Assembly: GCA_024683255.1 (NCBI GenBank) | Contig: JAIKYL010000240.1 | Coordinates: 1 to 31,496, forward strand | Length of the DNA: 31,496 nucleotides | Source: Bacteroidales bacterium | GTDB taxonomy: Bacteria > Bacteroidota > Bacteroidia > Bacteroidales > UBA932 | Reading direction: 5' to 3' | Part shown: piece by piece, positions 4,432-24,082 of the stretch | Layout of the letters: the number at the start of each line of letters is the position of its first letter | Position numbering within the stretch: the stretch's first letter is position 1 | Program-made: the position numbers and the translations under genes | Notes under the pieces: generated by a model | Seen by the model: only the letters and a program-made list of their open reading frames with translations | What the model was told of the DNA's origin: nothing | The model's database searches: none

Positions 4432-4458
4432 TTCTGCAATATAGAATAGAATAATTAG

Positions 4459-4492
4459 GGGTATCCGGAAAGTCCGGATTGAGATTATACCC
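4459..4492 (+). other. nested hairpin in the leader of the TonB-dependent receptor gene
   Basis: GGGTAT (4459-4464) can pair with ATACCC (4487-4492), while ATCCGG (4463-4468) can pair with CCGGAT (4474-4479). A third small hairpin, ACGGT-TCAT-ACCGT, follows near 4505. There is no U-tract, so this is not an ordinary terminator. No known riboswitch was recognised. Confidence 0.35.
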
Positions 4493-4527
4493 TCATAACT
4501 TGATACGGTTCATACCGTCGTAAGGAG

Positions 4528-6729
4528 ATGAAAAAAACTTTGCTTCTTGCAGCACTTCTTGTGCTGCCCTTCTGCGCACAGGCGCAGGACAAGACGGAGC
4601 GTCTGGACTCCGTGGTGGTATCGGCCTCCCGTGCCGGCAAACAAACACCCGTTACCTTTACCAATGTGGGAAAAGACGCCCTGGGCGCCGCCAACCCCAC
4701 CAATTCCCTGCCCATGGCCCTGAACCTGCTGCCCTCCGTGGTCACCTACAACGAAGGCGGCACCGGCCTGGGCAATTCGGCCATGACCATCCGCGGCTCC
4801 AAGGGATCCCAGATTAACGTGACCCTTAACGGCATCACCCTCAACGATGCCGAGAGCCAGGAAGTCTTCTGGGTGAATATCCCCGCCCTTACCAGCCTTA
4901 TTTCCAGCGTGCAGGTGCAGCGGGGCCTGGGTACCAGCGCCAACGGAGCTGGCGCCTTCGGAGCAAGCCTTAACATGAACACCGCCTTCGTTACGCCGGA
5001 CCCCTGGGCAAAAATAGACTTCAGCGGGGGCTCCTACAATACCTTCATGACAACCCTCAGCGGCTCCACCGGCCTTTCGGAGAAGGGATTCTACGGCTCC
5101 GCGGCCTATTCCCACGGCAGTACGGACGGTTATATCCGGAACGCTTTCGTCCAGTCCCAGAGCGCCTTCGTGGCCCTGGGATGGCTCCGCGGCGCCAATT
5201 CCCTGCGTCTCACCTGGCTCATGGGGCAGCAGCGGAGCGGCATCACCTGGGACGGTATAGATCTGGAGCAGTACGAAAAGGACCGCACCTACAACGGCGC
5301 CGGCGAATATTACGACGAACTGGGCAACGTCTATTACTATCCCAACCAGACCGACAATTATGTCCAGCACCACCTGCAGCTCAATTACACCCATTCCTTC
5401 GGCAGCCATCTCAGCTGGGCCAACACCCTCAACTATACCCGCGGAGAAGGATACGACGAGTATTATAAGGTGAACCGGAAACTGAAGAATTTCGGCGTAG
5501 CGTTTCCCGACGGGGACAATTACCCCTCCCGCAGCGACATGATCTATCAGAAAAAGATGGACAACGACCTCTGGGTGTTCAATTCCAACCTGCGGTACCG
5601 CTCAGAAAGCCTGGATCTCACCGGTGGCGTGAACCTTTCCCGCTACCGGGGCGGCCACTGGGGGGAGGTCCTCTGGGTGAAGGCCTTTGGGGATGACGTG
5701 GAGCCCCGGTACGACTGGTACCGTCACGAAGGCGTTAAATGGGACGCCAGCGCATTCGTTCGGGCCGAATACAAACCGCTGGACTGGATTACCGCCTATG
5801 CCGATCTGCAGTACCGCGGCATCCGCTATTCCTTTGCCGGCTCGGACGACGACTGGCTGGAGTTCGGCCGGAAAGAGGAAGACCTGCTGGATTACAGGCA
5901 GGACTGGCATTTCTTCAATCCCCGCGCCGGCGTAACTGCACAGCTGGGCCGGCATAAACTCTATGCCTCCGCCGCCTGGGGCAACCGCGAACCGGGTCGG
6001 AGCGACATCAAGGAGAACGTGAAAGGGGAGGGGGCGCCCATCCGTCCGGAGAAGATGCTGGACGTTGAGGCGGGCTGGCAGTTTGCCTCGGAGGCGCTCA
6101 CCCTGTCGGCCAACCTCTACCTGATGGAGTACTGGGATATGCTGTTGGAGACGGGCCGACTGTCCAGCTCCGGCTATGCCCTCAAAGAGAATGTGCCCCG
6201 CTCCTGGCGCCGCGGCATGGAGCTTTCGGCGGCCTGGCAGGTGTTCAGCTGGATGCGCCTGGACGGTAACTTTACCCTATCCATGAACCAGATCCGGGAT
6301 TATACCTCCTACGTTACCATAGACGATTATTCCGGCCGTACGCATCCCGTGAACTACGGCAAGACGCAGATGCTTATGTCACCATCCGTTATCGGCATGG
6401 GGGTGATAACCATCCGTCCCTGGAGGAACGGGAGCCTGGCCTGGGATGGTAAATATGTGGGGAAACAATTCATAGACAGCTCCATGCGGGAAGAGATGGC
6501 CATACCGGCCTACTTTGTCTCTTCCCTGTCTCTGAGCCATAAGTTCAGTTGGAACAAGGCATCCCTTACGCTTAGCGCCTACGTCAACAATCTCTTCAAT
6601 CACCTCTATTATGCCTCAGGCTGGCGCTGGGAGGAGTATAACGAAGCATCCGGTACCATCACCTCAGGAGTGGGGGTGTATCCGCAGGCTCCCCGAAATT
6701 TTTGTATAAAGTGTAGCCTTACTTTTTAA
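4528..6729 (+). CDS. TonB-dependent outer membrane receptor
   Basis: A 733-aa outer membrane transporter powered by TonB. A signal peptide (MKKTLLLAALLVLPFCAQAQ) is followed directly by a TonB-box-like segment DSVVVSAS. The plug domain comes next (about residues 40-150, with MTIRGSKGSQINVTLNGI and QVQRGLGTSANGAGAFGASLNM), then a 22-strand-type barrel ending in aromatic residue F733. It lacks the N-terminal carboxypeptidase-like domain of SusC proteins and has no SusD partner, so it is more like siderophore, cobalamin or metal receptors. The substrate cannot be told. The lone upstream neighbour in the same direction is the glutaminyl cyclase. The leader contains nested hairpins (4459-4492). 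Confidence 0.93.
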   Translation: MKKTLLLAALLVLPFCAQAQDKTERLDSVVVSASRAGKQTPVTFTNVGKDALGAANPTNSLPMALNLLPSVVTYNEGGTGLGNSAMTIRGSKGSQINVTLNGITLNDAESQEVFWVNIPALTSLISSVQVQRGLGTSANGAGAFGASLNMNTAFVTPDPWAKIDFSGGSYNTFMTTLSGSTGLSEKGFYGSAAYSHGSTDGYIRNAFVQSQSAFVALGWLRGANSLRLTWLMGQQRSGITWDGIDLEQYEKDRTYNGAGEYYDELGNVYYYPNQTDNYVQHHLQLNYTHSFGSHLSWANTLNYTRGEGYDEYYKVNRKLKNFGVAFPDGDNYPSRSDMIYQKKMDNDLWVFNSNLRYRSESLDLTGGVNLSRYRGGHWGEVLWVKAFGDDVEPRYDWYRHEGVKWDASAFVRAEYKPLDWITAYADLQYRGIRYSFAGSDDDWLEFGRKEEDLLDYRQDWHFFNPRAGVTAQLGRHKLYASAAWGNREPGRSDIKENVKGEGAPIRPEKMLDVEAGWQFASEALTLSANLYLMEYWDMLLETGRLSSSGYALKENVPRSWRRGMELSAAWQVFSWMRLDGNFTLSMNQIRDYTSYVTIDDYSGRTHPVNYGKTQMLMSPSVIGMGVITIRPWRNGSLAWDGKYVGKQFIDSSMREEMAIPAYFVSSLSLSHKFSWNKASLTLSAYVNNLFNHLYYASGWRWEEYNEASGTITSGVGVYPQAPRNFCIKCSLTF

Positions 6730-12530: not shown

Positions 12531-13291
12531 TGAAGCGTTTCCTGTTCCTGCCGATGGTTCTGATCCTTGCCCTGCAGCCCTTGCAGGCGCAACGTAGGGA
12601 TTCCACGTACACGGCTTCGGAACGGTTCAAATGGGAAAAACTAATTGCCCCCGCCTCTCTTGTGGGAGTGGGGGCAATCTGTACCATATCCCCCTGGTAC
12701 AAGGAAAAGGTGAATCTCCCCGTGAGGGAGTGGGTGCTGTCCAATACCGGCGGCACGGAATACAGCTTCGATAACTATCTCCAGCATGCCCCCTTGGCCT
12801 CCTATACCATTGCAGGCTTCTGCGGGGCAGGGGAACACGGAGCGTGGGAGCATCTTATTACAGCTGCTACCACTTTTGTGATATTTACCGCTTTCGCCCA
12901 GAGTCTCAAGCGCATTGTGGGAGTTACCCGCCCCAACGGAGGAACGCATTCTTTCCCATCCGGACATACCACCACAGCTTTTGCCGGAGCGGAACTCGTC
13001 CGGCTGGAATATGGCCCCTGGTGGGGCCTGGCGGCCTATTCCGTGGCCGGTTTCACCGCTTTTATGCGGGTGTGGAACAACCGGCACTGGACCAGTGACG
13101 TGATAGCGGGTGCCGGTTTCGGCATCCTTAGCGCCAACATAGCCTACTGGCTTCTTCCCTATGAGAGGAAGCTGTTCCACTTGGATTCCAAGCAGGTGAC
13201 GGGCAAAAACTTTCAGTTTCAGGCAGCCCCTTATGCTGCAGCAACGCCATACGGATCTTCCTATGGCCTAACCCTGGCTTTACAATGGTAG
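12530..13291 (+). CDS. PAP2-family membrane phosphatase
   Basis: A 253-aa phosphatidic-acid-phosphatase-type enzyme. All three family motifs are intact: K127-x6-R134-P135 in KRIVGVTRP, PSGH at 143-146, and R180-x5-H186-x3-D190 in RVWNNRHWTSD. A signal-like hydrophobic start (MKRFLFLPMVLILALQPLQAQ) and further membrane segments place the active site on the periplasmic side. Likely substrates are lipid phosphates such as undecaprenyl diphosphate, phosphatidate or lipid A, and the motifs do not decide which. The start is fixed by the TAATG overlap with yidC at 12528-12532. It overlaps the next gene by seven bases, so all four genes of this run look co-translated. Confidence 0.92.
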   Translation: MKRFLFLPMVLILALQPLQAQRRDSTYTASERFKWEKLIAPASLVGVGAICTISPWYKEKVNLPVREWVLSNTGGTEYSFDNYLQHAPLASYTIAGFCGAGEHGAWEHLITAATTFVIFTAFAQSLKRIVGVTRPNGGTHSFPSGHTTTAFAGAELVRLEYGPWWGLAAYSVAGFTAFMRVWNNRHWTSDVIAGAGFGILSANIAYWLLPYERKLFHLDSKQVTGKNFQFQAAPYAAATPYGSSYGLTLALQW

Positions 13292-14064
13292 CAGAATCCC
13301 TCAAAATACTTCGTTCGGCGCTGCCTTCCGGGGTGGAGCTGGTGGCCGTGTCCAAATTCCATCCGATAGAGCGTCTCATGGAGGCCTACAACGCCGGTCA
13401 GCGCCTCTTTGGCGAGAACCGGCCGCAGGAGCTGGCGGCCAAGGCGCCGCAGATGCCGGCCGATGTGCAGTGGCACTTCATCGGCCATCTTCAGACCAAC
13501 AAGCTCAAACTGGTCCTTCCATATGTTACCATGGTCCAGTCCGTGGATTCTTTCCACCTCCTTGAAGCCATAAACAATTGGTGTGCAGCCAATTCCAAAA
13601 CCATAGACATCCTCCTGGAACTCCATCTGGGTGCAGAGGAAACAAAGTCAGGTTTTACTGAGGAAGAAATCCTTTCTGTTATTAGCGCCGCAGGCACACC
13701 CTCTGAAACCCATGGCCACCCTCGGCCGTGTAAGAGGGAGGGGCCCACAGCAAGTGCCCAACGGGCACAGCGAGGTGGGAAGGGCCTGAGCGAAGCGAAG
13801 GAGGTTTCAGAGGGTGTGCCTGCAGAGCTGACCAATGTAAGGATTAGGGGATTAATGGGTATGGCCACCAATACGGACGATATGGCTATTGTGGAGGCCG
13901 ATTTTGCCAGGATCGAGGCGCTTTTCAACAAAATAAAAGCCCTGGATCTGCCGGGCTTTGATCAATTGTCCATTGGAATGTCGGGGGACTGGCCGCTGGC
14001 GGTTAAGCACGGGGCCACCATGGTGCGGATTGGGACAGATATCTTCGGCCCCAGGGAGTACTAG
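13285..14064 (+). CDS. YggS/PLPBP-type PLP homeostasis protein with in-frame repeat insertion
   Basis: Single-domain PLP-binding protein of the YggS/PROSC family, involved in pyridoxal phosphate and amino-acid balance. PLP lysine is K24 in AVSKFHP. Other family marks are GENRPQEL, WHFIGHLQTNK, GLMGMATNTDD and the C-terminal LSIGMSGDWPLAVKHGATMVRIGT. The protein has 259 aa instead of the usual 220-230. The excess is a low-complexity stretch from about residue 137 (starting GTPSETHGHPRP) to about 180, just before LTNVRIRGLMGM. It coincides with a 134-bp element with perfect 21-bp inverted ends (13690-13823). The frame stays open and both flanks align with the family, so the protein is probably functional with an added surface loop. 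It ends in a CTAG shared with the convergent gene's stop. Confidence 0.93.
   Translation: MVAESLKILRSALPSGVELVAVSKFHPIERLMEAYNAGQRLFGENRPQELAAKAPQMPADVQWHFIGHLQTNKLKLVLPYVTMVQSVDSFHLLEAINNWCAANSKTIDILLELHLGAEETKSGFTEEEILSVISAAGTPSETHGHPRPCKREGPTASAQRAQRGGKGLSEAKEVSEGVPAELTNVRIRGLMGMATNTDDMAIVEADFARIEALFNKIKALDLPGFDQLSIGMSGDWPLAVKHGATMVRIGTDIFGPREY
13690..13823. repeat. 134-bp palindromic element inserted in yggS coding sequence
   Basis: The arms at 13690-13710 and 13803-13823 are perfect 21-bp inverted repeats (outer bases GCAGGCACACCC and GGGTGTGCCTGC). Inside lies a second perfect hairpin, GTGCCC-AAC-GGGCAC (13754-13768), flanked by CCCAC/GTGGG pairing, so the whole element can fold into a long structured hairpin. 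GCAG occurs at both ends (13690-13693 and 13822-13825), a possible short target duplication that overlaps the arms. The element has no transposase and is open in the yggS frame. It resembles in behaviour the Rickettsia palindromic elements, but no sequence relation is claimed. Confidence 0.85.
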
Positions 14065-22787: not shown

Positions 22788-22828
22788 GCACAGTACGTAC
22801 ATGTCGTCAAAACATGTACGTACTGTGC
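22788..22828. repeat. 16-bp perfect inverted repeat across the end of the Omp85-like gene
   Basis: The arm at 22788-22803 (GCACAGTACGTACATG) and its exact complement at 22813-22828 flank a 9-base loop. The right arm lies within the last codons of the barrel gene, whose stop is at 22807-22809. It could stop minus-strand transcription, but no T-run follows on that strand, so a protein-binding site or mobile-element end is also possible. Confidence 0.7.
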
Positions 22829-24069
22829 ATGCCTATCGTGAAATCACTTAACTGCGGATCCAGCGCTTTGCCGAAGTCTATGCCCAGGGTCATGTTGGTG
22901 TTGATGTGGACGGCTGCGCCAACACCGCCGCTTAGCATGATGGGCAGCTGACGGTCCTGGTACAGGCCTGGCAGGGTTTTCTGCTCTTCTAGCCTGTAGG
23001 TCCGGGTGATTGCGCCCAGGTCCATGAACGGCATAAGGACAAGGTCTATGTGCTGTTTGAAAAGGTCAAACTTGAAAAGGGTGGCACGGAGCTCCAAGTT
23101 GGCCCAGGCAATGCCGGGAGCCAGGATCCTGTCGTACCTGTAACCCCGGATGGTATAGCGGCTTCCCAGGCCTTCGTACTCCTCGTACTGGTAAAGGAGA
23201 GTGGAGATTTCCGACAGATTATAGTACGGCATTTCTCCCAGGAACTGGTGCTGGAGGCCGATATGATAGGCAAAGGTGAGCCGGTTGAAAATGATGGGGA
23301 CAAAGTGCCGGAAATGGGCCACCACCTGTGCGTAGTGGTACTTTTTGTGGGACAGGTCCAGATTTCCGTTAAGGTACAGCTCTCCGTAAAGGCCCTTGCC
23401 GGGGAAGAGCTCCACGTCCCTGGTGTCGTAGGTGAAACCGGCCTTCAGTTCCAGCGAAGCGCCGCCATGGGCCTCGTCGGCACGGATGAGTCCGGCGTCC
23501 TGGTATGCCAGCCATAGGCTGTTGCCGGAATCGTAATTGCTAAGGTTGTAATCCTGTAGACGGATATAGCGGAACACCAGACCGCCCATCCAGTTGAGCT
23601 GGTTCCTGCCTTCCCGCTGAATCACTGCCACCGCGCGGACCACCTGTTTGTGGTTGTTGTAGTATGCGGTGCGGGTTGCCTTGTTGGTTTCCAGGGCCGC
23701 GTCAAAGGGCGCAGCAACGCCGTTGAAACCGTAAAAGTTATTGGCGCTGGCATCCCGGTAGGTGAGGGAAGCGGTAATGCGTGCGCCCGGAATGAGCGTA
23801 TGGGAGTCGAACATCCCGTGGACGTACCAGGCGCCTTTTGTGGCCCAGGCGGCCGCCACGGCGATGTGATGGTAGAAATTGGGATAGATGGTCCCGTCTC
23901 CGTAGTAGAAAAAATCACTGAAGGCGCCCATGTTAAGGCCCAGGTCCGAATTGTAGCTTAAATCCGGCATGGGAACGAATGACCAGCCGGTCTTGGGGGC
24001 CGATTCCTCCTGGCCGAAAAGGTTGGCGGCGATGAACAGGACCGCCAGGGATAGAAGTACACGTTTCAT
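22807..24069 (-). CDS. Omp85-like outer membrane beta-barrel (surface antigen) protein
   Basis: A 420-aa exported protein with signal peptide MKRVLLSLAVLFIAANLFGQ and a C-terminal F (HSTYMF), consistent with a 16-strand outer membrane barrel of the bacterial surface antigen / Omp85 type. The hallmark loop motif reads TIRGYR near residue 306. YDTRDVELFPGKGLYGELYL is the usual start of the conserved barrel half. It has no POTRA domains, so it resembles short patatin-less or BamA-truncated homologues rather than BamA or TamA themselves. Its function is not known. The ATG at 24069 is preferred to a GTG two codons upstream. It is transcribed alone and ends in a 16-bp inverted repeat. Confidence 0.85.
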   Translation of the reverse strand: MKRVLLSLAVLFIAANLFGQEESAPKTGWSFVPMPDLSYNSDLGLNMGAFSDFFYYGDGTIYPNFYHHIAVAAAWATKGAWYVHGMFDSHTLIPGARITASLTYRDASANNFYGFNGVAAPFDAALETNKATRTAYYNNHKQVVRAVAVIQREGRNQLNWMGGLVFRYIRLQDYNLSNYDSGNSLWLAYQDAGLIRADEAHGGASLELKAGFTYDTRDVELFPGKGLYGELYLNGNLDLSHKKYHYAQVVAHFRHFVPIIFNRLTFAYHIGLQHQFLGEMPYYNLSEISTLLYQYEEYEGLGSRYTIRGYRYDRILAPGIAWANLELRATLFKFDLFKQHIDLVLMPFMDLGAITRTYRLEEQKTLPGLYQDRQLPIMLSGGVGAAVHINTNMTLGIDFGKALDPQLSDFTIGMHSTYMF

Positions 24070-24074
24070 ATCCA

Positions 24075-24082
24075 CAAATATA
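24075..24082 (-). promoter_or_regulatory. possible -7 box of the Omp85-like gene
   Basis: On the minus strand the bases read TATATTTG, five bases before the ATG at 24069. If used, the mRNA would have almost no leader. There is no clear -33 box. Confidence 0.35.

Follow-up and report, generated by a model that had tools for sequence, protein, structure and literature searches.

A dispersed palindromic element with copy-specific arms and a pseudoknotted core lies in frame within yggS of a Bacteroidales bacterium

Rickettsia provides the best-known palindromes that code for protein, and REPs a lesser example; the ends of bacterial MITEs are common to their copies. Rickettsia palindromic elements (RPEs) are described in PMC10969869 as ~150-bp repeats found in frame within a wide range of unrelated genes, each encoding a conserved peptide. 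REPs also occur in open reading frames (ORFs), including truA and truB, and CGTC-tagged REPs have been reported in Bacteroidetes (PMC3733652). Long perfect inverted repeats inside translated genes are further described from the mitochondria of Nematomorpha (PMC6649704).

The element described here was found in yggS of a gut-type Bacteroidales bacterium known from metagenomic assembly. Like RPEs, it is a dispersed, multi-copy palindromic repeat that lies in frame in unrelated ORFs; compared by description, it differs from them in belonging to another phylum, in its copy-specific arms and covarying pseudoknotted core, and in encoding no single conserved peptide, as its core is read in several frames. 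Because of these frames, arms and core we do not file it as an RPE, and regard it as RPE-like in behaviour, by analogy, rather than as an established member of that group. It resembles REPs (GTAG- and CGTC-tagged) in forming hairpins that are sometimes inside ORFs, and TGTC-type repeats occupy the same yggS loop. Its copies are larger than REPs, however, at ~100-190 bp compared with 20-40 bp, and so are its paired segments, the arms covering 14-45 bp where REP stems have 5-13 bp; no common counterpart of the unpaired GTAG or CGTC tag of REPs was seen among the copies examined. It is short, has inverted ends and lacks a gene of its own, as do bacterial MITEs, but its ends differ between copies (a near-fixed-arm subfamily in genome G017 is the exception). 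With invertons it shares inverted repeats and a core found in both orientations, but not a common recombinase site. In the coding palindromes of Nematomorpha both arms encode conserved parts of the protein, whereas here the whole insert is an added loop. A search of the open-licence literature, weak evidence in itself, returned no description of such an element in Bacteroidales.

The DNA analysed (31,496 nt of contig JAIKYL010000240.1, hereafter the window) carries yggS on the plus strand at 13285-14064 and, within it, a 134-bp element at 13690-13823, delimited by an inverted-repeat scan and matched by covariance model R1, whose core is on the plus strand, in the same sense as the gene. The copy-specific P1 arms, GCAGGCACACCCTCTGAAACC (13690-13710) and GGTTTCAGAGGGTGTGCCTGC (13803-13823), are exact reverse complements (21/21), so that rescanning reproduced precisely the element length, coordinates and perfect 21-bp arms of the first-pass annotation that had singled out this locus. 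Between them on the same strand lie P2 (CATGGCC at 13711-13717 and GGCCGTG at 13724-13730), the pseudoknot P3 (CCCTC at 13719-13723, within the P2 loop, and GAGGG at 13734-13738), the variable hairpin P4 (CCCAC...GTGGG, 13744-13779) and the P5 hairpin region (GGCCTGAGCGAAGCGAAGG, 13783-13801). P4 contains the inner perfect hairpin noted earlier, GTGCCC/GGGCAC (13754-13759 / 13763-13768). The label 'palindromic' is apt for the self-complementary arms but not for the whole, which is no simple palindrome but a multi-stem, pseudoknotted core closed by the arms. The predicted RNA fold of 13680-13833 lies 6.7 s.d. (plus strand) and 7.8 s.d. (minus strand) below dinucleotide shuffles, none of 200 of which folded as well, and model R1, built without the window copy, matches 13697-13816 at 74.5 bits (E 2.3e-13). 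The window copy has three open frames, and its core motif contains a stop in only one plus-strand frame, a property not general to all copies. The motif GGGAGGGG is present twice, a possible G-quadruplex.

The host gene encodes a 259-residue pyridoxal phosphate homeostasis protein that matches Pfam PF01168 (E 2.7e-17) and has PipY (5nlc) and E. coli YggS (1w8g) as relatives in the PDB. As the first-pass annotation had stated, the element is in frame and introduces no stop, the ORF being open throughout, and the insert is inferred to be translated as part of YggS. Relatives without the element provide the empty site that had been proposed as a check: in L051, L053 and L096 the protein has 212 residues (636 nt, matched from the start or from residue 1-2), so that the window protein is indeed longer exactly at the insert, by 45-47 residues rather than the roughly 40 first estimated. 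The insert is bounded by the protein segments GAEETKSGFTEEEI and NVRIRGLMGM, and a stretch of 51 residues in the window protein corresponds to 8 in PipY in the best alignment to a PDB entry. AlphaFold2, run on a 41-sequence alignment, models the protein with a mean pLDDT of 84.9 and 190/259 residues at or above 90, while residues 138-175, between the helix at 126-136 and the strand at 185-192, fall below 50. Few alignment rows cover these residues, so the low confidence may partly reflect a lack of data; the insert is probably a disordered loop (peptide, for example, EVSEGVPAELTNVR), in keeping with the tolerated loop originally suggested. In TIM-barrel enzymes, loops that lead from a helix to the next strand sit opposite the active site.

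The palindromic element is dispersed in the host's Bacteroidales family, and the insert in yggS represents one of its copies. The nearest genome, G001, yielded 21 DNA matches at E <=1 (ten below 1e-7) and 14 matches to the covariance model, which supports the palindromic element proposed in the first-pass annotation. By DNA search the core was found in 18 of 41 relatives, all within the genus; in the same 41, the covariance model recovered it from 20 of 25 genus members and from none of 16 genomes of other families. In a sample of the family (119 genomes, 25 genera) the model matched 26 genomes from 7 genera, with four positive members of the host genus (G001, G061, G135, G161) and at least three (G099, G118, G193) that were absent from the matches. 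In an order-wide sample it matched 5 of 247 genomes, of which three belong to other families; one genome had 9 matches. The exact core pattern had no match in viral contigs. The model was derived from 56 of 65 listed copies, the window copy excluded, chosen for an arm score of at least 17 and a core length of 56-86; nine copies with other arm-core boundaries were omitted, and its E-values are rough.

The arms are peculiar to each copy. Within genomes, four pairs of copies with a core identity of 1.000 have arm identities of only 0.32 to 0.56 (0.26 to 0.27 when shuffled), and in L109 and L176 all 69/69 core bases are common. A core identity of 95% or more is found in 19 of the 227 pairs compared within genomes; arm identity in these averages 0.40, against 0.28 in shuffles, so that the arms may in part be inherited. 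That they were inherited whole and drift along with the core is disfavoured by the identical cores with largely unlike arms. Nor do the arms appear to be inverted copies of the target: at the ABC ATPase gene (25 loci, 8 parsed, of which 2 are filled and 6 without insert, and 17 unparsed), arm sequence is absent from the insert-free sites, which implies, for this one gene and its diverged relatives, that the arms came with the insert or arose later.

Despite this variation between copies the arms remain paired. Among 2393 arm pairs in 88 copies, 86 are non-Watson-Crick, including 50 G.T, 9 A.C and 17 A.G. Unconstrained transitions would give as many G.T as A.C pairs on a given strand, so the G.T excess (50/9, p 5e-8) implies that the core-sense strand folds; the excess persists as the arm score is raised from 12 to 22 (60/10, 58/10, 50/9, 25/4), and in the yggS copies alone it is not significant (6 G.T against 2 A.C). 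The arm finder returned a score of at least 17 at 0.33% of 1500 random sites in yggS loci. A separate subfamily in G017 (L136-L149) and G077 (L237-L239) has near-fixed arms (TGGTCTCGGC) and lies in larger intergenic repeats; the copies L136/L239, L142/L238 and L144/L237, common to the two genomes, belong to it. Comparison of these genomes revealed no clean fresh insertion: the flanks of L135 in G017 have no match in G077, which is 72% complete, and the common copy L123 is split at contig ends in G077.

The copies have a common layout of P1 arms (often ending AACC...GGTT), P2, the pseudoknot P3, in which the P2 loop pairs with a downstream stretch, a P4 hairpin that opens CCC and closes GGG, and P5, often TCGCGAAGCGAC. 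Across the 56 model copies, 87.6% of 2092 alignment cells are paired, against 72.7 (s.d. 0.5) in shuffles, none of 500 of which reached that value, and two-sided changes occur in 31/40 pairs, where shuffles average 21.3. When the partners are slid by 1 to 3 columns, pairing falls to 36-50%. Selection of copies by arm score favours pairing in P1, not in P2 to P5. P3 is paired in 99.6% of cells, with two-sided changes among the types CCCTC/GAGGG, CCCCC/GGGGG, CCCGT/ACGGG, CCCAT/ATGGG, CCCGC/GCGGG and CCCAC/GTGGG (tallied where at least 4 of 5 pairs form). In genome G012, P5 is long and, by eye, differs between copies yet stays paired; there L127, L182, L183, L185, L186 and L188 carry copy-specific perfect P5 stems with a similar tip, mostly ACGTCC(A/G)GTGGACGT.

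Many other genes harbour the element. A heuristic census of 98 copies (arm score at least 12) placed 33 inside ORFs, some of which may be spurious (14 in sense, 19 against), and 65 outside. Twenty ORFs were hand-picked as conserved-looking and then scanned against Pfam; all 20 matched above the cut-off, and in 11 the matches span the element or flank it on both sides: ABC_tran (L003), PseudoU_synth_1 (L005, L103), Radical_SAM_N (L006, L151, L187), UPF0004/Radical_SAM (L160), FAD_syn/Flavokinase (L158), RNB (L198), SpoU (L126) and GH3 (L189). In L185 (ATP_bind_3) and L128 (DHQS_C) a second Pfam-matched stretch exists, and in L007, L104, L122, L167, L190, L206 and L170 the matches are one-sided. 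The names TruA, TruB, TrmB, TilS, RibF, YgiQ and RNase R were assigned by us from the Pfam families. In-frame copies are present in pseudouridine synthase, radical SAM, methyltransferase, RNB, RibF-type and ABC ATPase genes, which apparently also translate them. By eye, different genomes have the element at one and the same position in several genes, with opposite senses in the case of the ABC gene, and host genes read the core in different frames (at least two plus and three minus). Of six frames, 3.0 are open on average in yggS copies (20 copies; 1.5 in shuffles), 3.3 in copies within other genes (30; 2.0) and 2.8 in the remaining 65 copies outside genes (1.8), so openness does not come from selection in genes alone.

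Taken as a whole, these data are best accounted for by a dispersed element, a copy of which enters a loose protein loop and is tolerated there in frame, its arms being renewed by template switching and its fold kept by selection, a reading to which we assign a probability of roughly three in four. The most serious competitor, which we nonetheless consider unlikely, is that the core is a functional host RNA (a ribozyme, or a protein-binding or regulatory RNA) selected at each site and not a selfish repeat. The covarying pseudoknot and stems and the one-strand G.T excess would suit such an RNA, as would the orthologous copies L123 and L243-L244, whose cores differ, by eye, at 2/82 positions within flanks that are 83-84% identical; this sameness may, however, reflect homogenisation between copies. 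Against it, the element has no Rfam match at gathering scores, and a search of seven loci at E <=1 gave nothing sensible, only four weak matches; L127 hit plant microRNA families, probably on account of its long hairpin. Nor do the copies keep to one orientation relative to genes (of the 33 inside ORFs, 14 run with the gene and 19 against it); the genes concerned are unrelated, and presence in yggS is patchy.

Mobilisation in trans would be a second route to the one-strand fold: the element might be REP-like or a miniature transposon, moved as a single-stranded hairpin by a Y1 (RAYT-like) transposase. Y1_Tnp is commoner in genomes that carry the element (24/26 versus 57/93, p 0.002, uncorrected for kinship), the P5 sequence GAGCGAAGCGAAG of the element resembles the TGTC-type repeats of seven yggS loops, and REPs, too, enter ORFs such as truA and truB (PMC3733652, as above). 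This idea is nevertheless rather improbable, somewhat more so than a host RNA, as the copies have no conserved ends, arms differ between copies of equal core, no REP-sized stem bears an unpaired tag, and none of the 20 Y1_Tnp matches examined, of 25 in six genomes, was flanked by the repeat or lay within 6.7 kb of a listed copy.

For this element, the loop in yggS is a hot spot. Among the window and the best 80 of 520 relatives from a scan of named genomes, the loop could be read in 74 sequences and seven were unparsed; by hand reading, 19 of the 74 contain the element, 7 in gene sense and 12 against. The first-pass annotation had named, as contrary to its view, close relatives that all carry a non-palindromic loop of similar length; instead the loops vary: some are empty, and others hold the element in one orientation or the other, remnants, or different repeats. 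L052, for instance, has a partial element followed by in-frame repeats of CACAAAAAGTGGGGTGTTTTGTTCACCAGA, a few more loops hold other repeats, and some contain apparent remnants, such as L026 of G001. The loops of L044, L049, L056, L060, L062, L065 and L087 carry short repeats read as CHSERSEES or ISSEVEKS, indicating that the site accepts other repeats; the gene copy in L087 is a broken one.

On a tree of the 74 YggS proteins, in which 27/71 inner branches are weak, the 'against gene' label requires 12 changes (shuffled mean 11.5; 155/500 shuffles as low) and the 'gene sense' label 6 (shuffled mean 6.6; 394/500). The labels are thus not clustered beyond shuffles, and a single, old, inherited insertion is unsupported on this tree; either turnover would be fast or the tree is too poor, and repeated insertion and change in place are not separated by it. 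One pair is more telling: the 107-nt cores of L027 (sense) and L040 (against), which belong to one supported clade (97/95) and have similar arms, are identical once one is reversed (1.00 versus 0.50), best read, from these sequences, as an inversion in place. L039 and L042 make a weaker case (0.81 reversed versus 0.50). The exact inversion, both orientations at one site and the openness of both readings could also point to an intragenic inverton, the core being turned by a site-specific recombinase so that members of one population would differ in their YggS loop. We consider this quite improbable, given that no site sequence is common to the arms of different copies, that the next-best opposite-orientation pair reaches only 0.81, and that YggS is not a surface protein.

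The 19 yggS copies, with inserts of 14 different lengths, also keep the frame without exception, and the frame that is read is free of stops in all of them; the other two same-strand frames contain stops in 16/19 and 18/19, and a shuffled insert would be open with a chance of 0.31. A highly structured insert in conserved genes might instead be removed from the mRNA like an intron or skipped by the ribosome, which would need no avoidance of frameshifts or stops, so that the kept frames make both very improbable. Assembly artefact, finally, is the least credible reading of all, since the window aside in-frame inserts occur at this same loop in 18 separate MAG records, even if several contigs end within or beside elements and an 89-bp palindrome at the contig start of L244 looks false. 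Contig ends, for example at L114, L168, L243 and L244, are often inside or adjoining an element, and hairpins seem both to break assembly and to make false palindromes.

Returning to the dispersed element, we envisage entry of a copy into a gene at a point that encodes a loose loop of the protein. A stop-poor copy (~3/6 frames open versus 1.5 to 2 in shuffles) of frame-keeping length would add a tolerated, disordered peptide, and insertions that break the frame would be purged. DNA-polymerase template switching between the arms would keep them complementary and occasionally turn the core round, and deletions would leave remnants, as may have happened in yggS of G001. In yeast genes, inverted repeats have their arms homogenised and their spacers inverted by template switching (PMC8604942), and RNA stems have been proposed to arise and persist through this process (PMC8794818); here, too, it probably both matches the arms and inverts the core. 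Template switching accounts for arm matching and inversion but not by itself for the G.T excess. That excess suggests that the fold of one strand is functional; selection for that fold, as RNA or single-stranded DNA and perhaps during spread, could preserve the pseudoknot and stems. The element is inferred to be non-autonomous. Among the 20 Y1_Tnp matches examined no transposase partner was found, and the insert-free ABC and yggS sites are too diverged for a target duplication to be read.

The original interpretation of the locus is supported in outline; the copy-specific arms, the covarying pseudoknot, inversion in place and the many other genes were not foreseen. We tentatively raise a further possibility, doubtful but slightly more plausible to us than a host RNA, that the family represents a new class of mobile structured RNA in which the pseudoknotted core and a stem-pairing rule are inherited, not the stem sequence. 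If so, each copy would make or renew its own arms by template switching and could sit in important genes, flip there and be translated, and movement through an RNA or a folded single-stranded DNA would make it a mobile element that lacks fixed ends. The family adds another large case of coding palindromes, in a different phylum, with about twenty natural insertions in one enzyme loop and further ones in tRNA-modifying and other enzymes, and illustrates how repeats can lengthen proteins. It also provides a natural setting in which to test whether template switching keeps hairpins paired and turns their loops, and a covarying pseudoknotted motif without an Rfam match.

Elsewhere in the window, a search for perfect inverted repeats (15-mer seeds, spacers up to 160 nt) returned, besides the pair at 13690-13823, only that at 22788-22828, whose 17-bp arms lie at the end of a minus-strand ORF (22807-24075) and perhaps form a terminator hairpin. 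The sole Rfam match in the window at gathering scores is a TPP riboswitch (RF00059, 68.9 bits) at 4447-4543 on the plus strand, just upstream of and overlapping the start of the ORF at 4528, which reads like a TonB-dependent receptor.
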